Below are positions 3,222 to 38,757 of a DNA stretch of 64,000 nucleotides, piece after piece. The position numbers and the translations under genes were made by a program. The notes beneath the pieces were generated by a model, which worked only from the letters and a program-made list of their open reading frames with translations, had not been told where the DNA came from and made no database searches. How positions within the stretch are numbered: the stretch's first letter is position 1; every line of letters starts with the position of its first letter. Source of the stretch: Flagellimonas eckloniae (GTDB lineage: Bacteria > Bacteroidota > Bacteroidia > Flavobacteriales > Flavobacteriaceae); NCBI RefSeq assembly GCF_001413955.1, contig NZ_LCTZ01000002.1, positions 806,001 through 870,000 on the forward strand, given 5' to 3'.

Positions 3222-3361
3222 CAACCTTGCTGTTTTTTGGTTTTTGTACAGTTCAATACATTTCTTGTCCAATTCACTACATTTCATTTTTTAAGAAAGG
3301 GATTGTGGCACATCTTTGCTGCATCAATCAAAACAAATCATCAATCAAAAAACGAACAATC

Positions 3362-4810
3362 ATGAATCAATTGTCAAAAATCCTCGCAGCCCTTCTTCTA
3401 AAGCTTCTTCTTTTTATTTTATTGTTTGGGAGCGACTCGTTACAAGGGCAAAAAAAGAGCACTTCAATAAGCATCAGCAACAAAGGAAAAACCACAATTT
3501 CGGTTAACAATGGTTTTGGAAATAGTTTTCATGTTGAATACAGAGGTGAAATTAAACTTTCGGATGATGACAGTGATGTTGTTTCCATCTCTCCCGGAGG
3601 TTATATGGAAATAAAAAAATCTGCCTTTGGAAATCGCAGGAAGATTTTTATTGAACCAAATAGCTCTGGAAAGCTTATCAAAAAATACTATGTAGGCAGT
3701 TCTGAAAGAAGTTTTGATTCTGAGGGAAGAAAATGGATGGCTGAAATTCTTTTGGAAGTGGTCCGCTCAACTACCCTTGGTTCTGAACAGCGGGTAAATA
3801 GGATTTATAGAAAAACTGGTGCATACGGTGTGCTCAAAGAAATAGATTATATAGGCGGTGACCATGTTAAAGCCAAATACATAAAGTTGCTGCTTCAAAA
3901 AGACCTTAAAAATGCAGATTACATATCCATTCTCAATGTAATTGGTGATGATATTGATTCTGACCATCACAAAGCCGATATTTTAAAAAATAACACCTCT
4001 AAATTCTTAAAAACGGAGGCAAGTGCTGCCGCTTATATTGAAGCAGCTTCTGAAATAGATTCAGATCATCATATGGCAGAGGTACTCAAAAAATCAATAA
4101 AGGATGGCAGGATAACAGATAATCAAATGAACTCACTTTTTATGATAGCAAGAAATATTGATTCGGATCATCATAAATCAAGTGTTTTATTAACGGTCTT
4201 GAAATCAAGGTCATTAAACTCCAGTAATCTAAAACTATTGATATCCAGTGCTAAGGATATTGATTCCGACCACCATAGGGCAGAGGTTCTGAGGGCGGCC
4301 CTAGACACTGAAGGGGTAGCACCAAGCAGTTTTCATGCTTTGTTAAGCTCCTTGGATGGAATGAGTTCTGACTACCATATTTCCACAGTGCTTTCCAAAT
4401 TGCTTCGAGAGGACCTAGATCCATCTTCGTTTTCCCATGCCCTTAAGCAAACGGGGCAAATCAGTTCCGATAGTCACAAAACCAGTATTCTAAAGTCTGC
4501 TGTAAAAAAAGAATTATCCAATGAAAACATTGAAATTTTAATAGATGTTTTGGATCATATGGGTTCTGATAACCATAAAGCGGATGTTTATAAACAGTTG
4601 GCAAGAAATAGTTATTCTGACATGCAACTTTCCAAAATTTTGCTGAGTATTAAAGATATTAGTTCTGATTACCATAAGGCTGATGCTTTATTAGCATTCT
4701 CTAGAATTGTCAAGGAAAAAGGAGGTACTGTTGGGGATTCCTATAACTCGGTTTGCAGAAGCATTTCATCGGACTCTCATTTTAGAAGGGCATTAAACGC
4801 AATTCGATAA
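3362..4810 (+). CDS. Exported protein with ten 34-residue SDxH repeats
   Basis: This 482-residue protein starts with a hydrophobic export signal (about residues 1-30, ending SLQGQ) and a beta-rich region to about residue 145. The rest is a tandem array with a 33-35 residue period: the motif S-D-x-H recurs with its Ser at 200, 234, 268, 302, 336, 369, 402, 435 and 470, preceded by a degenerate copy at 166 (G-D-H). The first four full copies read IDSDHH. Each copy is mostly helical, suggesting a solenoid. The ATG at 3362 is chosen because longer frames to 3227 put the signal peptide internally. Similar SDYEK-type repeats occur in Bacteroidota envelope proteins, some next to M56 peptidases. The nearest downstream gene is a sensor kinase 64 bp away. 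The function is unknown; the histidines could bind metal. Confidence 0.82.
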   Translation: MNQLSKILAALLLKLLLFILLFGSDSLQGQKKSTSISISNKGKTTISVNNGFGNSFHVEYRGEIKLSDDDSDVVSISPGGYMEIKKSAFGNRRKIFIEPNSSGKLIKKYYVGSSERSFDSEGRKWMAEILLEVVRSTTLGSEQRVNRIYRKTGAYGVLKEIDYIGGDHVKAKYIKLLLQKDLKNADYISILNVIGDDIDSDHHKADILKNNTSKFLKTEASAAAYIEAASEIDSDHHMAEVLKKSIKDGRITDNQMNSLFMIARNIDSDHHKSSVLLTVLKSRSLNSSNLKLLISSAKDIDSDHHRAEVLRAALDTEGVAPSSFHALLSSLDGMSSDYHISTVLSKLLREDLDPSSFSHALKQTGQISSDSHKTSILKSAVKKELSNENIEILIDVLDHMGSDNHKADVYKQLARNSYSDMQLSKILLSIKDISSDYHKADALLAFSRIVKEKGGTVGDSYNSVCRSISSDSHFRRALNAIR

Positions 4811-4874: not shown

Positions 4875-5912
4875 ATGGAGCGAATAGCAAACTATTTTAT
4901 AGATAGACCAACCATGGGAAGGAACCTTTTTTTGTGTCTTCTTGGCTTCATTGTAGGCATTTTGTTCTACAGTTTTCACAATTTCAATGTAAAACCAAAC
5001 GTATCAGAACTTTTGCTGAACGGGGTACTTGGAATCACTATCAGCTACGCTTTTCATTATTCCAATTTGTTTTTGAACAAAACCATAGGCTGGAAAAAGC
5101 AAACAGGGTTCAGACTTTTATCGGGAATAATGGTGCACTTATTTATTGGCTTTGGGTTTGTTTTATTGGCTCTTAAGAGCTACGAATTTATTAGACCGGA
5201 GTATGTGTTTTTTTCCAAGGAAGGGGTTAATGTGTTGTTGGAAATAGGGATCTTACTGTTCTGCACCGTTTTAATATACAATGTCATTTATTTTGCATTC
5301 TACTCCTACCAGCAGTATACAAGGGGTCAAGTCTTGCAAGTACGTTTTGAACGAAAGCAAACGGAACTTCAATTAAAAGCATTGAAATCCCAACTCAGTC
5401 CACATTTTCTTTTTAATAGCCTTAATACCTTATCCTCTTTGTTTCAAAAGGATGTAAAAAAGGCCGACGTGTTTATACGTTCGTTGGCAAGGTCATATCA
5501 ATATACACTTACTACGTACAAAGATGTTTTGGTATCCATTAAAGATGAATTGGCTTTTGTGGATTCTTATTGTTTTATGGTAAAAACGCGTTTTGGAGAT
5601 TATTTGTCCTTAGATCTACAATTATCAGATAAAGAATTGAAAAGTAAAATACCCCCATTGACCCTTCAAATGTTAGTTGAAAATGCAGTTAAGCACAACA
5701 TTATCAATGAAGAAAACCAATTAAAAGTGGAAATTAAAGCTAAGAATGGGTTTCTGGAAATAAGCAATAATAAGACGGTAAAACGTCCGGAAGTTAAATC
5801 TTTGAAAATAGGCCTCAAAAATATTATTTCCAGGTATGAACTTCTTGGGTACAAAAAGGTTCAGGTAATTGATGATGACATTTTCACGGTAATATTACCC
5901 TTACTTGCATGA
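4875..5912 (+). CDS. LytS-type sensor histidine kinase
   Basis: This is a 345-residue kinase with four N-terminal transmembrane segments (between about residues 17 and 142) and a cytoplasmic His_kinase/HATPase region. The phospho-acceptor His177 lies in the LSPHFLFNSLNTL motif, the ATP-binding N box is VENAVKHN (Asn270, His274), and a glycine motif occurs at KIGLKNIISRY, 311-321. There is no large periplasmic domain, so the signal is probably sensed in or at the membrane. Its stop overlaps the next ATG by four bases, and the operon continues with a degenerate kinase and a LytTR response regulator. The repeat-protein gene upstream may be part of the same unit. Confidence 0.92.
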   Translation: MERIANYFIDRPTMGRNLFLCLLGFIVGILFYSFHNFNVKPNVSELLLNGVLGITISYAFHYSNLFLNKTIGWKKQTGFRLLSGIMVHLFIGFGFVLLALKSYEFIRPEYVFFSKEGVNVLLEIGILLFCTVLIYNVIYFAFYSYQQYTRGQVLQVRFERKQTELQLKALKSQLSPHFLFNSLNTLSSLFQKDVKKADVFIRSLARSYQYTLTTYKDVLVSIKDELAFVDSYCFMVKTRFGDYLSLDLQLSDKELKSKIPPLTLQMLVENAVKHNIINEENQLKVEIKAKNGFLEISNNKTVKRPEVKSLKIGLKNIISRYELLGYKKVQVIDDDIFTVILPLLA

Positions 5913-6928
5913 AAAAACTTTTTATCCATAAACCGTTTTTTAGGCTATTGAGTCCTCTGTTTAGTGGAACCTTGGTATATCTTCTCATTTTACTGATCAA
6001 TAATTCCGTTGCTGACCTTAATGAAAACTTTTTTGGACAAGAGCTATATGTGTGTATCGGACTTGCTTATCTAATTCAGGAATATGTCCGTTTCTCCATT
6101 GTAATATTTAAGCGCATTGCAAGACCTTCTTCCTTTGTGTATAGGATAGCGCTGCAGATCGTAAGCACACTTATGATCAATATCGTTTTGGTATCCTTGG
6201 CAATGCACGTTTACTTCACAAAAGTACTTTTGTATTCACTTAATAGCAGGGAGCTATTAATTTTCAATAGTATTTTCTCTGTTATTGCTTTGATTTACAT
6301 ATTGTTATACGTAAGCCATCAATTTTTATTTAAGATAAATACTGAAAAGCTGGAGAAAGAAGAGTGGGCCAGACAAGAAATAGAAGAAGATTTTGTAGAG
6401 TTCAAGAGAGATATTAATCCAATGTTGCTTTTTGAGAGCCTTGAAGCCATATTGGCCATTATGAAAGAGGACCCAGATAAAGCAGAATTGGTTACAGATC
6501 GCTTTGCGTTGGTTTACAGATATTTTTTATCAAGGAAAAAGGATGAGCTTGTCCCTGTTAAAGAAGAAGTTGAAATCCTTGAAGAGTTGATACAATTACT
6601 TTCAGAATTACCTTATAGGAAAGTAAGTTTAGGAAAAGTAGAGCTTGGAAATACGCTCACGGTACCTGGAAGTATGTTGCAACTTCTTGAGCTTATAATG
6701 CGAACCACAATACCTTCTAAAAACAAGTCATTGGTTGTTGATATTAAAGAATCTGAAAATGAAATTATATTTAAATATATACATGAAGAAAAGATAAATA
6801 AGAATTTAAATATCAATGATTTAAAATTTTTATCGAAAGAGTTTAGTTATTATGCTTCACAGCCTATACAAATACTTCATGAAGAAGACTTTAAAACCAT
6901 CCATTTACCAAAACTGACCCTAGCATGA
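5909..6928 (+). CDS. Degenerate LytS-type kinase (pseudokinase)
   Basis: This 339-residue protein matches its upstream neighbour in architecture: four N-terminal membrane segments, a linker helix, then a kinase-like region. The catalytic positions are lost. Where the partner has PHFLFNSL this protein has PMLLFESL, so the phospho-acceptor His is Met172 and the Asn is Glu. The N box VENAVKHN is replaced by LELIMRTT, and no glycine-rich G box is visible. The reading frame is intact and overlaps both neighbours by four bases, so it is not a decayed pseudogene. Likely roles are heterodimerisation with, or allosteric control of, the active kinase, or signal sensing. The homology is inferred from alignment by eye. 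Confidence 0.85.
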   Translation: MKKLFIHKPFFRLLSPLFSGTLVYLLILLINNSVADLNENFFGQELYVCIGLAYLIQEYVRFSIVIFKRIARPSSFVYRIALQIVSTLMINIVLVSLAMHVYFTKVLLYSLNSRELLIFNSIFSVIALIYILLYVSHQFLFKINTEKLEKEEWARQEIEEDFVEFKRDINPMLLFESLEAILAIMKEDPDKAELVTDRFALVYRYFLSRKKDELVPVKEEVEILEELIQLLSELPYRKVSLGKVELGNTLTVPGSMLQLLELIMRTTIPSKNKSLVVDIKESENEIIFKYIHEEKINKNLNINDLKFLSKEFSYYASQPIQILHEEDFKTIHLPKLTLA

Positions 6929-7686
6929 AAATTGCCATTATAGAAGACGAACCATTGGCAGCGGAAAAGTTACAGCGCTATCTTTTAAAATATAGTGAAG
7001 AAATTGAAGTGTTGGCCACATTGCCATCTTTAGAAACCGCCATACCGTGGATAGAGGAGCATCAACAAAAAGTGGATTTGTTTTTTATGGACATTCAATT
7101 GATAGATGGGCTTAGTTTTGAAATTTTCACAAAGACTTCAGTACAAAAACCTGTTATTTTCACAACTGCTTTTGATGAGTTTGCCATTGATGCCTTTAAG
7201 GTGAACAGTATTGACTATTTAATGAAACCGATTATGTTCACGGACTTGTCCAGAGCACTTCAGAAACTAAAATCATTGAAGGCGCAGTTTTCAAATCCGG
7301 TAGAATTGGTTCCGTTGATTCAAAAAATACAGGAAAAAGTCTTTAAGGATAGGTTTTTAGTGCGGATGGGCAATCACATCCATTCTGTTCCAAGCACTAC
7401 CATAAATGCCTTTTTTGCCGAAGGAAGAGATGTTTATTTAGTAACAGATATAGGCAAGAAGTATATCATTGAGTATAAATTGGAAGCTTTGGAAGAACTG
7501 TTGGACCCAAAACACTTTTTTAGGGTAAACAGAACATTTATTGTTCATCTAAATGCAATTACAGATGTTACGGTTTATGCCAACCGAAGATTAAAATTGG
7601 CATTGAGCTCAAAATTGGACAAGGAAGTTATCATAAGCAGGGAAAAAGTGGCCGATTTTAAAAAATGGTTTGAAGGATTGGCTTAA
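6925..7686 (+). CDS. LytTR-family response regulator
   Basis: This 253-residue regulator has a receiver domain (about residues 1-120) with acidic pocket EDE at 7-9, phospho-acceptor Asp56 in FMDIQL, and the switch region TTAFDEFAIDAF followed by Lys in YLMKPI. The C-terminal LytTR DNA-binding domain runs from about 143 to 250, including FFRVNRTFIVHLNAI. It overlaps the pseudokinase stop by four bases and is surely the output partner of the kinase pair. Its stop shares the bases TTAA with the convergent Crp-type gene. Confidence 0.93.
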   Translation: MKIAIIEDEPLAAEKLQRYLLKYSEEIEVLATLPSLETAIPWIEEHQQKVDLFFMDIQLIDGLSFEIFTKTSVQKPVIFTTAFDEFAIDAFKVNSIDYLMKPIMFTDLSRALQKLKSLKAQFSNPVELVPLIQKIQEKVFKDRFLVRMGNHIHSVPSTTINAFFAEGRDVYLVTDIGKKYIIEYKLEALEELLDPKHFFRVNRTFIVHLNAITDVTVYANRRLKLALSSKLDKEVIISREKVADFKKWFEGLA

Positions 7687-8258
7687 ATCTGGTTGTTTTT
7701 TTCTTTTAGATCTTTTAAAGCCCTGTTTAGACTTCTTACTGTAAACCCAATATAATTGGCAATATCTTTTTTGGATATCACAGAGGTAAATTCTGGAAAT
7801 ATTTTTTTTAACCGTAGCAAGTTATCTTCAATAGGGTAGGAGTGCTGGTAAGAGTGTCTCGGAGCCTTATATCTAATTTTATCTGCAAGGGCCTTCATGA
7901 CCAATTGATTAAAAAGACTGTCTTTTTCTAAAAGTTCATTAAACCCAGAGTGTGAAATGGAAAGGGTTTTTAAAGGAGTTATGGTTTCGATGGAGCATAT
8001 AGTATGTTTTTTACTAAATACCTCCAATTCTCCAAATTCCATTCCCTCACCCAAAAATTCTTGGATAAATTCCTTTCCATTTTCATCAGAAATATAACAT
8101 TTTGAAATTCCCTCAATAATAACGTAGACCCTATTATACCTTCTGTCCTGTTCAATTATTTTATGTTTGGCATTAAACTGTTCTTCTCTAATATCATAAG
8201 CTCCTTTCTTATACAGTATTTGTATATAAGCGGCTAATTCTAAGTTAGATCTAATCAT
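7683..8258 (-). CDS. Crp/Fnr-family transcriptional regulator
   Basis: This 191-residue protein has an N-terminal cyclic-nucleotide-binding-like beta roll (about residues 20-115, with YVIIEGISKCYI and FLGEGMEFGELEVF) and a short C-terminal helix-turn-helix, SKKDIANYIGFTVRSLNRAL, at about 160-180. The effector loop is not canonical for cAMP binding, as is usual in flavobacterial members. It is divergent from an MFS transporter gene about 100 bp away and may regulate it; the shared upstream region is AT-rich without a clear palindrome. Confidence 0.85.
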   Translation of the reverse strand: MIRSNLELAAYIQILYKKGAYDIREEQFNAKHKIIEQDRRYNRVYVIIEGISKCYISDENGKEFIQEFLGEGMEFGELEVFSKKHTICSIETITPLKTLSISHSGFNELLEKDSLFNQLVMKALADKIRYKAPRHSYQHSYPIEDNLLRLKKIFPEFTSVISKKDIANYIGFTVRSLNRALKDLKEKNNQI

Positions 8259-8360
8259 TTTTATGAATGGGACAAATGTCCTTTTTAGTACTGCGGAGAT
8301 GCAATTTCTTTGCCCCTAAAGTTATGGAATACCAATTGGGATATCAATAAAAGAAATCTA

Positions 8361-9536
8361 ATGCAGCCCAAAAAAAATGGAATATACACACCGAAGTTTG
8401 TACTTATCTGTCTAAGTTCTCTTTTCTTTTCGGCAAGTTATAATATGCTGATTCCTGAACTTCCATCGTACTTGAGCAGTTTGGGAGGGGCAAAATATAT
8501 AGGGCTGATTATAGCTCTTTTTACTCTTACGGCGGGTGTTTCCAGACCTTTCAGTGGTAAGTTAACGGATACTGTTGGGCGAAAACCGGTGATGCTTTTT
8601 GGTGCAATGGTCTGTTTGGTTTGTGGATTGTTTTATCCTGTACTGACCACCGTATATGGTTTCTTGTTATTACGCTTGTTTCATGGTTTTTCCACTGGGT
8701 TTACGCCAACGGCAGCTTCTACTTTTGTATCTGATGTAGTGCCAAAAGAAAGACTCGGAGAGGCAATGGGCATACAAGGAATAGCTTTTAGTACAGGCTT
8801 GGCTTTAGGTCCAGCACTGGGAAGCTATATTAAACTCTATTTTTCGTATTCAGTACTATTTTATAGCTCCTCCATTGTCGCTTTTTTAGCTCTTGTGTTG
8901 ATATTGAATTTAAAAGAGACACTACCAAAAAAAGAACGGTTTAGACTGGGAATATTAAAGATATCAAAGAATGACATTATTGCCTTTGAAGCATTACCAC
9001 CGGCAATAATCACTTTTTTAGCATACGTTGGCTTCGGAGTTATCCTGACGCTGATCCCAGATTGGACAGCGGCAGTAGGCTTTGTGAACAAAGGGGTGTT
9101 TTTTATTGTTTTTACTGTTTCGTCTTTGTTGGTTCGGTTTATGGCAGGAAGATTTTCTGACCGTTACGGTAGAGAGAAAGTAATCGTTGTGGGCCTTGTT
9201 TTGCTTTTAATTGCTTTAAGTGTAATTGGCTACGTAAACACGAAATCTGGACTGCTGATCGGGGCATCAATATATGGTCTAGCAATGGGTATAATGTCAC
9301 CAGCAATCAATGCATGGACCATAGATTTAAGCCGACCTAAACAAAAAGGAAAAGCAATGGCAACTATGTACATTGCATTGGAAACTAGCATTGGGTTAGG
9401 GGCGCTTTGTTCTGGGTGGTACTATCAAGAAGCCATTCAGCGAATTCCAGTAATAATGTATAGTTGTGCCGGATTGGCACTCCTTGGAGTGGGATATATT
9501 CTTTTACTAAAAAGAAATAATATCGCTAAATATTAA
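8361..9536 (+). CDS. MFS transporter
   Basis: This 391-residue protein has about twelve transmembrane helices. MFS motif A appears in both halves, as GKLTDTVGRKPVM after helix 2 and GRFSDRYGREKVIV after helix 8. The substrate is not evident; the family includes drug and metabolite exporters. The ATG at 8361 is preferred over a TTG at 8310 in the same frame, because the extra 17 residues are hydrophilic and the upstream site overlaps the likely promoter region. It is divergent from the Crp-type regulator gene. Confidence 0.88.
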   Translation: MQPKKNGIYTPKFVLICLSSLFFSASYNMLIPELPSYLSSLGGAKYIGLIIALFTLTAGVSRPFSGKLTDTVGRKPVMLFGAMVCLVCGLFYPVLTTVYGFLLLRLFHGFSTGFTPTAASTFVSDVVPKERLGEAMGIQGIAFSTGLALGPALGSYIKLYFSYSVLFYSSSIVAFLALVLILNLKETLPKKERFRLGILKISKNDIIAFEALPPAIITFLAYVGFGVILTLIPDWTAAVGFVNKGVFFIVFTVSSLLVRFMAGRFSDRYGREKVIVVGLVLLLIALSVIGYVNTKSGLLIGASIYGLAMGIMSPAINAWTIDLSRPKQKGKAMATMYIALETSIGLGALCSGWYYQEAIQRIPVIMYSCAGLALLGVGYILLLKRNNIAKY

Positions 9537-12745: not shown

Positions 12746-13897
12746 ATGACAACTGGAAGACTATCATCAAATACAGTAACCGCTTCGTTAACGTTCATAG
12801 AACGTTATAAAATACATCATGTCCTGTTTTGGGCGGTGTATCATTTTACATGGTGGACCATATTCTCCGGAAGTGTAACAGAAGTGTTTCAATCCGTTAC
12901 AGAACCTCATGGAATTGTAAAATATCTAGGATATGTCCTCTACCAAGCAGCTGGCGTTTATTTCTGCTTATATGTTTTAATTCCTAGACTACTTCAAAAA
13001 AGGAAATACATTGTTTTTTTCCTTTCTACAGTAGGTGTTGTAGTATTAATGGCCACATTGATTACCTCCAATTATTTTTTAGCGGCAAGGGTTGCAGATA
13101 TGTCGGTATACGATTTGTTTAAGATTTCACCGGAAAGCCCCATTTCAATTTTTAAATACAATGCACTTCCTTCATGTGTTGGAGCCGTGACCTTGGGTAT
13201 GAGTATAAAACTTACAAAGATTTGGATCGCTTCCCAAAAAAGGCAACAGGTCCTTGAAAAGGAAAAGCTTGAAACTGAGCTAAAATTCTTGAAATCGCAA
13301 TTTAATCCACACTTTTTATTTAATACGATCAATTCAATATTTGTATTGATCAACAAGAACCCTGAAATGGCTTCTGAGTCATTGGTCAAGTTTTCAAGTT
13401 TGCTGCGATATCAATTGTATGAATGCAACAGTAATCAAATTCCGCTGCAAAACGAATTGGCCTATATTGAAAGTTTTATGGAGCTGGAAAGCCTTCGTCA
13501 AAACAATAATTTTGAACTTACATCCAATATTTCCAAAAGGGAAGGAGAACGTTTCACCATTGCTCCATTTATATTGATTCCCTTTATAGAAAATGCCTTT
13601 AAGCATCTTTCAGAGGATTTTAAACTTAAAAAATGGATGCGTTTGGATATCTATATGGATGGGAAAAAATTACAATTTGAACTTGAGAATAGTGCAAACT
13701 TTGAATTCCAAAACACATTGGATGAGATGCATGTATATGGCGGTTTAGGATTAAAAAACGTAAAGCGAAGATTGGATATTATCTACCCAGATTCCCATAC
13801 CTTGGTCGTTACAAAAGGAAAAGATAGCTATTCGGTAAAATTGGAAATCGTTTTGCTAGGTGAAGAGGGAACCGTACTTAAAAAAGTAGGCGCATGA
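12746..13897 (+). CDS. LytS-type sensor histidine kinase
   Basis: This 383-residue kinase has four transmembrane helices in residues 25-160, a short linker helix, and the His_kinase domain with His189 in FNPHFLFNTINSIF. The ATP-binding N box is FIENAFKHL, and a G-box-like segment is YGGLGLKNVKRRLD. It overlaps the downstream response regulator gene by four bases (ATGA). The operon is divergent from the outer-membrane barrel gene, with about 220 bp between start codons. Confidence 0.92.
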   Translation: MTTGRLSSNTVTASLTFIERYKIHHVLFWAVYHFTWWTIFSGSVTEVFQSVTEPHGIVKYLGYVLYQAAGVYFCLYVLIPRLLQKRKYIVFFLSTVGVVVLMATLITSNYFLAARVADMSVYDLFKISPESPISIFKYNALPSCVGAVTLGMSIKLTKIWIASQKRQQVLEKEKLETELKFLKSQFNPHFLFNTINSIFVLINKNPEMASESLVKFSSLLRYQLYECNSNQIPLQNELAYIESFMELESLRQNNNFELTSNISKREGERFTIAPFILIPFIENAFKHLSEDFKLKKWMRLDIYMDGKKLQFELENSANFEFQNTLDEMHVYGGLGLKNVKRRLDIIYPDSHTLVVTKGKDSYSVKLEIVLLGEEGTVLKKVGA

Positions 13898-14616
13898 TTA
13901 ATTGTATCGTCATCGATGATGAACCCTTAGCGCGTGAGGGCATTATTAGCTACATTGAGCAATTGGATTTTCTGAAATGCGTAGGTACCGGAATATCTGC
14001 GCTTGATATTCCAAAGCTTTTGGGAAGTGGGGAAGTGGATTTGCTCTTCTTGGATATACAAATGCCCTTGATGAACGGTTTGGAATATTTACGATCCAAT
14101 CCAAAACCTCCAATGACAGTTTTGACCACTGCCTTTCCCAACTATGCCATTGAGGGGTTTGATTTGAACGTCTTGGATTATCTTTTAAAACCAGTTTCCT
14201 TTAATCGTTTTTTTGCGGCTGCTACCAAGGCCAAACAGCAATTCGTACTTAGGCATCAGGATACTTTCTTGGCAAAGGAAGAGGAACAAAGCTGCTTTTT
14301 TATTAAGTGTGATGGAAAATATGAAAAGATATTTTTGGAAGATATACTTTTTGTGCAGGCGTTACAGAATTATGTTATTATTCAAACCGTAAAAAGAAAA
14401 TATGTAAGTCTACTATTTTTAAAAAACGTGGAAGAAAGGTTAGATTCAACCAATTTTATTCGGGTACATAAATCATACATTGTTGCCATAGACAAAATTG
14501 AGGGGGTTGCCCAACACGAGATTCAAATAGGTTCTTATAAAATTCCCTTAAGCCGTAATTACAAGAAAGAGGTAATGCCAAAAATTTTGGGGGATAATCT
14601 TTGGAGTGGAAAGTAA
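13894..14616 (+). CDS. LytTR-family response regulator
   Basis: This 240-residue protein carries a receiver domain with acidic residues DDE at 8-10, phospho-acceptor Asp54 in FLDIQMP, Thr in TTAFPNYAIEGF and Lys in YLLKPV, then a LytTR DNA-binding domain from about 138 to 238 with FIRVHKSYIVAIDKI. It is translationally coupled to the kinase gene upstream and is its cognate partner. Likely targets include the divergent barrel gene. Confidence 0.93.
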   Translation: MINCIVIDDEPLAREGIISYIEQLDFLKCVGTGISALDIPKLLGSGEVDLLFLDIQMPLMNGLEYLRSNPKPPMTVLTTAFPNYAIEGFDLNVLDYLLKPVSFNRFFAAATKAKQQFVLRHQDTFLAKEEEQSCFFIKCDGKYEKIFLEDILFVQALQNYVIIQTVKRKYVSLLFLKNVEERLDSTNFIRVHKSYIVAIDKIEGVAQHEIQIGSYKIPLSRNYKKEVMPKILGDNLWSGK

Positions 14617-37071: not shown

Positions 37072-38757
37072 TTACCTATATATTTTTATGACATTTTTCC
37101 AACCGTGATGTGCAGGTTCTGAAGTAATTTCCCATTGATCATGGTAGCTTTCCGTAAGTCGGGCTTTGATGTATTTCAGTCCCGTACCTTCTTGCCTTTG
37201 AGCTGAAGCTTGTTTTATAATCTCGGCGTAGGTTAAAAATGTGTAGCAATCATAAGTACCATTTGACTCAAAAAGGAGTTTGAATTTAACGCTGTTATCT
37301 TCTAGAGGTAGACTATGTGTAATTCCGTTTTCCAATAAGGTATGCAGAATTCCAGGAGGTATTTTTTGCTCAGAATCGATGCCATCCTCTTCCCAAGAAT
37401 AGTTCACTTCTTTTCGGTATTCCATAATTTCTAAATGCGCACGGCAAAGGGCTATTTCTTGACTAATCGGTATTAAGGTTTGATTTTCTATCTGGTTCAG
37501 CAAGTCAAACTCCTTGGCCAGGGCCTCTATAAACAAGACACCTTTTTTAGGGGTTTCTTCTATCCAATCTATCAACGAAGTGAGCGTGTTCATAAGAAAG
37601 TGGGGCTGAATGTTCTTTTTAAGTAGCTCCAAGCGAAGGCGGGTAGATTGGACCAATGAATTTTCATAGGCCAATCGTTGTTCTTTGATTCGTAGGGAAA
37701 GCAAATACAACATGTTAAGCAGAATTAGACTAAAACCTGTGAAAAGACTAATGTTTAATGAAACATAATGGCGAATGAATATACAAAGGAGTAGGGTAAG
37801 CAACACCAGGAGAGCACCTTTTGCTTTTTTATAAACTCCAAAAGCTGCTATGCATAGGGAAAACAGCAATAAGATTAGCGTCATATTTAATATGGTGAGA
37901 TCAAATAAGTGGTGTTCAATAGAGAATATAAACAAAAGAACAGCGGTGTAAATACCTAAGAAGAGTTTCCATTTGGGGTAGGGGAACTGCATGGAAAAAT
38001 AGAGTGGAATCAAAAACGAAATACCGAACATTAGACTCGTAATAACTTCTAAACGTATAACGTGCAAGCTATAGTGAATTGGTATGGTTGTCCTAACAAA
38101 GTGGGTCATTGTCAAGCCAAAAAAGAGCAAACAACTGATGCTAAAAATAAGTGTGAGGTATTCTTTTTTATTTCCTAAGAATAGAAAAAGAAAATAGATG
38201 GATGCGATAAGAAAAGCTCCCGCAAAAACATGCATGTAGGAGTTTTGGATAAGTCGGTCGGTTAACAGATCATGGTAATCATCTATCCGCAACCCATAAT
38301 TGCCGATGTGATCTGGATAATAGTAATTACTCAACCTCAAGGCCATAACATGTTCACCTTTATTGGTCAAATGGGTAGGAATGTTAAAGGTTATCCATAA
38401 TTCGCCTTCAGGAGGTAAATCTGCCTCCTGTCCAGGGTTTCCGTTCTTACCGATTAAAACCCCGTCCCAAAATACTTCATACTCACCATAGGCTTCCAAC
38501 CGAAGCCCATAGGGTTTTAAGGCTTCCGGAGATTTGTGAATATCAATCTTAGTTCTGGACCAGAATATCTGTCCATCTGGCACTAATTCTAAACGATTTC
38601 CCCATAACCTATCATTCAAGTCTTTGGCAGCCCATTCTGCCTGATCTCCTATTTGAAATACCGTCCTGTATCGCGTAAAAACTGGCTCCTCGTTTTGAGA
38701 GCAAGAGGTTACTAACAACAGAGGAAATATGAAAAGAATGTATAGTAGATGTCTCAA
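37072..38757 (-). CDS. 7TM sensor histidine kinase (LytS-type)
   Basis: This 561-residue kinase begins with a lipoprotein-like signal (LLLVTSC, Cys19), followed by an extracytoplasmic beta domain (about 25-170) with FWSRTKIDIHKSPEALKPYG, seven transmembrane helices (about 175-365) and a cytoplasmic His_kinase region with His386 in IQPHFLMNTLTSL and the N box LENGITHS. The layout matches 7TMR-type sensor kinases, which bind extracellular ligands, often sugars. It is divergent from an operon of PD40/esterase genes; three GCAGTT copies lie in the shared spacer. Confidence 0.9.
   Translation of the reverse strand: MRHLLYILFIFPLLLVTSCSQNEEPVFTRYRTVFQIGDQAEWAAKDLNDRLWGNRLELVPDGQIFWSRTKIDIHKSPEALKPYGLRLEAYGEYEVFWDGVLIGKNGNPGQEADLPPEGELWITFNIPTHLTNKGEHVMALRLSNYYYPDHIGNYGLRIDDYHDLLTDRLIQNSYMHVFAGAFLIASIYFLFLFLGNKKEYLTLIFSISCLLFFGLTMTHFVRTTIPIHYSLHVIRLEVITSLMFGISFLIPLYFSMQFPYPKWKLFLGIYTAVLLFIFSIEHHLFDLTILNMTLILLLFSLCIAAFGVYKKAKGALLVLLTLLLCIFIRHYVSLNISLFTGFSLILLNMLYLLSLRIKEQRLAYENSLVQSTRLRLELLKKNIQPHFLMNTLTSLIDWIEETPKKGVLFIEALAKEFDLLNQIENQTLIPISQEIALCRAHLEIMEYRKEVNYSWEEDGIDSEQKIPPGILHTLLENGITHSLPLEDNSVKFKLLFESNGTYDCYTFLTYAEIIKQASAQRQEGTGLKYIKARLTESYHDQWEITSEPAHHGWKNVIKIYR

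Follow-up and report, generated by a model that had tools for sequence, protein, structure and literature searches.

A conserved operon of Flagellimonas eckloniae, encoding an exported protein (X), a histidine kinase (K1), a pseudokinase (K2) and a response regulator with a LytTR DNA-binding domain (RR), is a real variant of the two-component system for which no earlier description has been found. The operon is located in a window of 64,000 nucleotides, the whole stretch of DNA that was analysed, and its organization suggests a sensor whose sensing and catalytic functions reside in separate halves; the unit apparently switches on mainly itself.

Gene content and extent of the module

Three open reading frames at 4875..5912, 5909..6928 and 6925..7686, all on the forward strand and overlapping their neighbours by 4 nt, had been recognized in a preliminary description as two kinase-like proteins followed by one LytTR regulator, a gene set on which reading frames and Pfam domains agree. 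In a Pfam profile search, K1 (345 aa, four predicted membrane helices, 4875..5912) and K2 (339 aa, four membrane helices, 5909..6928) score 77.6 and 43.9 bits against PF06580, both above the curated cut-off of 25.2. As PF06580 is the sole Pfam family above cut-off in K1 or K2 and no LytS-type membrane sensor domain was found in either, the label 'LytS-type' is appropriate for the kinase domain and not for the membrane part. RR (253 aa, 6925..7686) combines the Response_reg and LytTR domains of a LytTR response regulator in Pfam, with the acceptor D56 present in 86/86 rows. The proposed operon of K1, K2 and RR holds, except that the unit starts earlier, with X at 3362..4810 on the forward strand and an operator at 3247..3281.

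The catalytic motifs attributed to K1 were recovered in full, with H177 in PHFLFNSL and N270 in VENAVKHN. In the alignment, H177, N181, E269, N270 and G313 are kept in 84/84 K1 rows, all of which possess the acceptor His, N-box Asn and G-box Gly of an active PF06580 kinase. The acceptor His is equally retained by the 15 PF06580 proteins of the genome other than K2, K1 counted among them. One multi-TM kinase with a PHFLMN box (L015, about 37411..37635, reverse strand) has the second-lowest PF06580 score in the genome and is without the conserved Arg of the YRYxL motif.

Downstream of the module, a CRP-type regulator (7683..8258, reverse strand) is convergent with RR, the ends overlapping by 4 nt, and is followed by an MFS transporter (8310..9536, forward strand); these two genes adjoin the module in 14/81 loci. 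A further pair of LytS kinase and LytTR regulator, with catalytic motifs present, is located at 12746..14616 on the forward strand.

K2 as a maintained pseudokinase

At the alignment sites equivalent to those of K1, K2 displays PMLLFESL (171-178, within the pattern NPxLLFESLE that replaces the H-box) and LELIMRTT (260-267), which bears out the reported loss of the phospho-acceptor His and the N-box Asn. The G-box is lost as well, with Gly at that site in about 1% of K2 rows, so that K2, 20% identical to K1 over 327 aligned residues, is devoid of all three hallmarks of an active PF06580 kinase. Among 86 K2 rows, which represent about 84 distinct loci as at least L153 and L155 were reached twice, and of which L140 and L143 are truncated by the end of a contig and L147 contains a run of N, a His at the acceptor site occurs once (L131) and the N-box Asn in four other rows; both together occur in 0/86 rows, spanning Flavobacteriaceae to Saprospiraceae. 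New residues have been acquired in a K2-specific manner, namely Glu or Asp at H+4 (85/86), Glu at H+7 (86/86) and Tyr at the N298 site (78/86), and the fixed residues of K2 include E176, E179 and R204.

The frame, described as undamaged, has internal stops in none of the 47 K2 matches listed from the whole-genome samples (14 + 27 + 6, with some genomes in two samples). The dN/dS ratio of K2, defined for four out of five pairs, is 0.05-0.11, with two of these values resting on saturated dS, and resembles that of K1 (0.08-0.10 in 3/5 pairs). In a quick tree of 101 rows, K2 forms a single clade (26/26 K2 rows, support 100). The inactive form is thus neither scattered nor decaying, being one clade that spans many genera, its frames open and under purifying selection. 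A kinase fold is equally predicted for K2, with a model of moderate confidence (pLDDT 83.6, pTM 0.56) that displays four membrane helices and matches the histidine-kinase core; its first match in the PDB is the GanS kinase domain (6swj, E 3.2e-05), a partial match (TMt 0.50, TMq 0.33, rmsd 7.1), among 126 structural matches at E <= 0.001. As judged from its sequence, K2 is a maintained pseudokinase rather than a decaying one, because no row combines His and Asn, its dN/dS is K1-like and new residues have been fixed at the lost sites.

Inverted conservation of the two kinase-like proteins

Conservation was compared in 80 of the 86 rows (3160 pairs), from which L139, L140, L143, L147 and L148, cut or with N, and the duplicate L153 had been dropped, with L155, a duplicate of L145, being kept. 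The membrane part of K2 shows 53% mean pairwise identity with 28/150 columns conserved at >=95%, versus 34% and 2/106 columns for its ATPase part, with the helical core at 11/83 columns. In K1 the order is reversed, with 34% and 5/155 columns for the membrane part and 51% and 42/190 columns for the cytoplasmic part. Consequently, the membrane part is more alike than the cytoplasmic part in 94% of the K2 pairs and in 0.5% of the K1 pairs; in a control of 22 ordinary LytS proteins, with 31% identity in the membrane and 70% in the cytoplasmic part, this is the case in 0/231 pairs. From this inverted pattern, selection is deduced to maintain the membrane part of K2 and the catalytic part of K1, as far as sequences tell, which fits a role of K2 as the receptor subunit serving K1 as the catalytic subunit. 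Distances of K1 correlate with those of K2 (r 0.85) and of RR (0.81), as expected of co-inherited genes.

A set of 49 other LytS proteins, 39 of them mostly found as K2 matches and 10 encoded in this genome, has 25 conserved columns, of which K2 has lost 12 and keeps 10, and K1 has lost one, R209, with Arg in 8/84 rows, two of which are the same locus. These 49 proteins were chosen by a motif that requires the H+4 Asn as well as H or Q, and figures at those columns are partly given by construction; R209 lies outside this motif. The equivalent Arg, R204 in K2, is present in 86/86 K2 rows. Such reciprocity suggests that K1 and K2 might share an active site, although it concerns one column, would arise by chance with a probability of about 0.4 given that K2 keeps 10/25, and the same Arg is also absent from kinase L015 of this genome.

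Distribution of the module and the exported partner X

In three samples that share some genomes, K2 orthologues, separated by a distinct gap in score in the first two, have been identified in 14/99 relatives (all 14 among the 60 genomes of the same genus), in 27/397 family genomes (23/237 genera) and, at high score, in 6/395 phylum genomes. Among named genomes, the best 80 of 87 loci confirmed in a scan extend the range from Flavobacteriaceae, which include Flagellimonas, Aquimarina, Tenacibaculum, Polaribacter and Croceivirga, to Saprospiraceae, Cytophagales and Bacteroidales MAGs. The window itself is assigned by its named relatives to the Flagellimonas/Allomuricauda group. K1 adjoins K2 in all 84 loci with a readable K1 place, the reading frames overlapping in 76 of them and by exactly 4 nt in 66. 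In 18 same-genus genomes, from among the 46 without K2, no close K1 match was found, the best one being partial with 43% identity.

Co-occurrence of X and K2 is exact, as 27/397 family genomes have both and none has one alone; the same holds in 14/99 relatives and, at high score, in 6/395 phylum genomes; four genomes of the phylum sample have a remote X-like protein and lack a K2 at high score. Upstream of K1 and on the same strand, X is found in 78/81 loci (the best 80 of 87 named loci and the window), the remaining three being cut by contig ends. The gap between X and K1 is <=110 nt in 69/78 loci, with a median of 65, and additional open reading frames separate the two genes in L111 and L123. 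A hydrolase-like frame is inserted before K1 in L123 (7439..8917), a membrane-protein-like frame in the operon of L111 (7712..8839) and another hydrolase-like frame between operator and X in L130 (6365..7486), whereas X of L147 (2666..3826) is apparently shortened at the C-terminus, on the contig that has the run of N in K2. For X of the window (482 aa), the start ATG at 3362 is preferred over a longer frame from 3227, given the conservation of this start and of the leader. The structural model (pLDDT 91.8) consists of a signal-peptide-like leader helix, a beta domain (33-116) and an alpha-solenoid (118-482) with SD(H/Y) repeats; no Pfam family is above cut-off for X.

Distant X-like matches occur in nine genomes, and eight of these loci were read, all but that of G951. 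Two are located in BlaI-M56 operons with Pfam support, and three behind a sigma-factor gene and an anti-sigma-like frame; one is flanked by permease-like genes, and around the other two no regulator operon was recognised. The sigma factor is Pfam-supported in two of the three loci, those other than L222; the labels anti-sigma, permease and hydrolase derive from a reading of ORF starts, and for two anti-sigma-like frames no Pfam family was found. X-like proteins in BlaI-M56 or ECF-sigma operons were noted at L208, L209, L210, L211 and L222. Three X homologues contain an M56 domain within the same protein, and in two aligned proteins (P0105 and P0113) the X-like part is C-terminal to the M56 peptidase domain; in BlaR1, the sensor domain is located after the peptidase domain. 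Relatives in BlaI/M56 and ECF-sigma operons or fused to M56 are the reason to see a hint that the X family might be an extracytoplasmic sensor that can be reused with several signalling chassis. In a sample of 100 genomes from the class to which G662 belongs, X-like proteins were found only in two genomes already known to have them.

Operator and probable autoregulation

The direct repeats TACAGTTCAATACA and TCCAATTCACTACA at 3247..3281 on the forward strand, with a period of 21 nt and with the 9-mers ACAGTTCAA and CCAATTCAC separated by 12 nt, are predicted to be bound by the LytTR regulator of the module itself. The operator pattern has one match in the window versus 0 in 100 shuffles, and at <=3 mismatches the genome has no other site than this. 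Within the 400 nt that precede the X start as called, a period of 21 with <=4/26 mismatches is present in 73/76 loci, as compared to 0/760 control stretches from the same loci. Among the three exceptions, L123 has the operator before the true X start, L130 has it before the extra hydrolase-like frame preceding X, where it still heads the operon, and L145 has a weak repeat with 6 mismatches. In L111, which is not one of the 76 loci, the site precedes X, and L079 has too little upstream sequence for this search. In the flanks of the loci, no further sites were found at <=4/26 mismatches and period 21. At 3311..3318 on the forward strand, the promoter-like element CATCTTTG, conserved in an alignment of Flagellimonas-group upstream regions, resembles the Bacteroidota -7 element, TAnnTTTG. 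As expected for a LytTR-type operator, direct repeats with a 21-nt period are thus found upstream of a promoter-like element, and repeats of nine bases spaced by 12 bp have been published as LytTR autoregulatory sites (PMC6193735). Since the repeats have this published form and are the genome's one site at <=3 mismatches, RR most likely controls its own module; the control is probably positive in sign, because the repeats are located just upstream of the promoter-like element.

Comparison with known signalling systems

To our knowledge, LytS/LytTR systems such as BtsS/BtsR possess neither a second inactive kinase nor a separate exported partner gene. Their kinase and regulator are of the same domain types as K1 and RR (PMC5552118, PMC10653868). 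The likeness to BlaR1/BlaI resides in the X-like proteins that occur in BlaI-M56 operons or fused to M56 domains; X of the module, however, accompanies a kinase pair and not a peptidase and repressor, and no M56 or BlaI domain was found by Pfam in the four module proteins. DivL and ChrS belong to kinase families other than LytS. DivL of Caulobacter (PMC4211667) and the laboratory-evolved ChrS pseudokinase (PMC9491836) are non-catalytic and act through another kinase, as is proposed for K2, but ChrS arose from a frameshift under selection, whereas K2 is a conserved operon partner. LytTR Regulatory Systems such as HdrRM consist of a regulator and a membrane inhibitor (PMC6193735), in contrast to the kinase pair of this operon with its intact kinase and receiver-type regulator.

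Nearest in layout among known systems is FasBCA of streptococci, the operon of which, in group A Streptococcus, encodes a single regulator and two membrane proteins that resemble kinases; according to one study (PMC12675982), FasB and FasC interact with each other and neither with itself in a two-hybrid assay, and FasC has been proposed to be a pseudokinase. The active site is, however, split differently, as FasC keeps the acceptor His246 and FasB provides the kinase domain, whereas in this module the His and the ATP site are both in K1 and absent from K2. The same study describes Fas kinases with six putative transmembrane segments, no X and, as output, the separately transcribed small RNA FasX (PMC12675982), in contrast to four segments in K1 and K2 and the presence of X. 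In the literature searched, no paper was found that pairs LytS or LytTR with 'pseudokinase'; most subscription papers lie outside this search and an earlier description is possible.

Proposed mechanism and alternative explanations

The best explanation, which we consider rather probable, is a self-contained module with X as sensor, K2 as receptor, K1 as catalytic subunit and RR as autoregulator. Gene content, co-occurrence, motif loss, selection and operator-like repeats rest on sequence, and a K1:K2 heterodimer, X as its sensor, binding by RR and positive control are what we infer. The explanation is weakened by three of the eight X-like loci lying outside recognised regulator operons, by the four phylum-sample genomes in which an X-like protein is accompanied by no high-scoring K2, and by the moderate confidence and partial PDB match of the K2 model. 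X would be exported to serve as an extracytoplasmic sensor or signal carrier, to be read, or its signal, by the conserved membrane part of the receptor subunit K2, the kinase-fold tail of which would pair with K1. K1 would bind ATP and phosphorylate its own His177 in cis within the heterodimer, because K2 offers neither His nor ATP site; the phosphate would pass to Asp56 of RR, and phosphorylated RR would bind the 21-nt-period repeats and increase transcription of the module.

The preliminary description had left K2 as either a subunit that senses or gates K1 or its repressor, and the former fits better because the membrane part is the most conserved part of K2. A contact inhibitor of K1, RetS-like and relieved by X or the signal, seems unlikely to us: overlapping reading frames would suit a stoichiometric inhibitor, and K2, without ATP-site and acceptor residues, could therefore act on K1 only by contact, but a pure inhibitor has no need for a membrane part that is its most conserved portion. 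Still less credit is given to an action of K2 on RR, be it as a DivL-like reader of RR phosphorylation or as a phosphatase, as the His and the H+4 residue, which other kinases use for phosphatase chemistry, are gone from K2 and most constraint resides in the membrane part, which cannot touch RR; the partly kept helical core with the fixed E176, E179 and R204 would speak for it. A reading of K2 as a pseudogene in decay or as an artefact of annotation, which the loss of 12/25 LytS-conserved columns might indicate, is practically discounted by its low dN/dS, the absence of internal stops and the conserved new motif.

A separate alternative concerns X alone and is compatible with any reading of K2, namely that X is the regulated output, with the kinases responding to another signal. 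X, first in the operon, is driven together with the kinases by the one strong operator of the genome, and X-like genes come after regulator genes in BlaI/M56 and ECF operons, a possible place of a regulated product; however, in the two aligned M56 proteins the X-like part occupies the place of the BlaR1 sensor domain, and we regard the output role as a possibility on the doubtful side.

Beyond X as sensor and K2 as receptor, a more far-reaching version can be put forward tentatively. Histidine kinases have mostly been described as symmetric homodimers; here, the kinase might be obligately asymmetric, with K2 receptor-only, reading X across the membrane, and K1 catalytic-only, and with one composite active site to which K1 would contribute His, Asn and ATPase and K2 Arg204 and the fixed acidic residues. 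The circuit would be closed, with its own operon as the main genomic target, and the X sensor would have been passed between LytS/LytTR, BlaR1/BlaI and ECF sigma systems.

Implications

K2 has stayed non-catalytic across several Bacteroidota families while keeping its membrane part, and the separability of receptor and enzyme in a kinase therefore becomes testable. Equally, the single strong operator is a ready reporter. Through the X family, an uncharacterised exported protein is linked with three signalling systems unrelated to each other, and its ligand is a concrete question.
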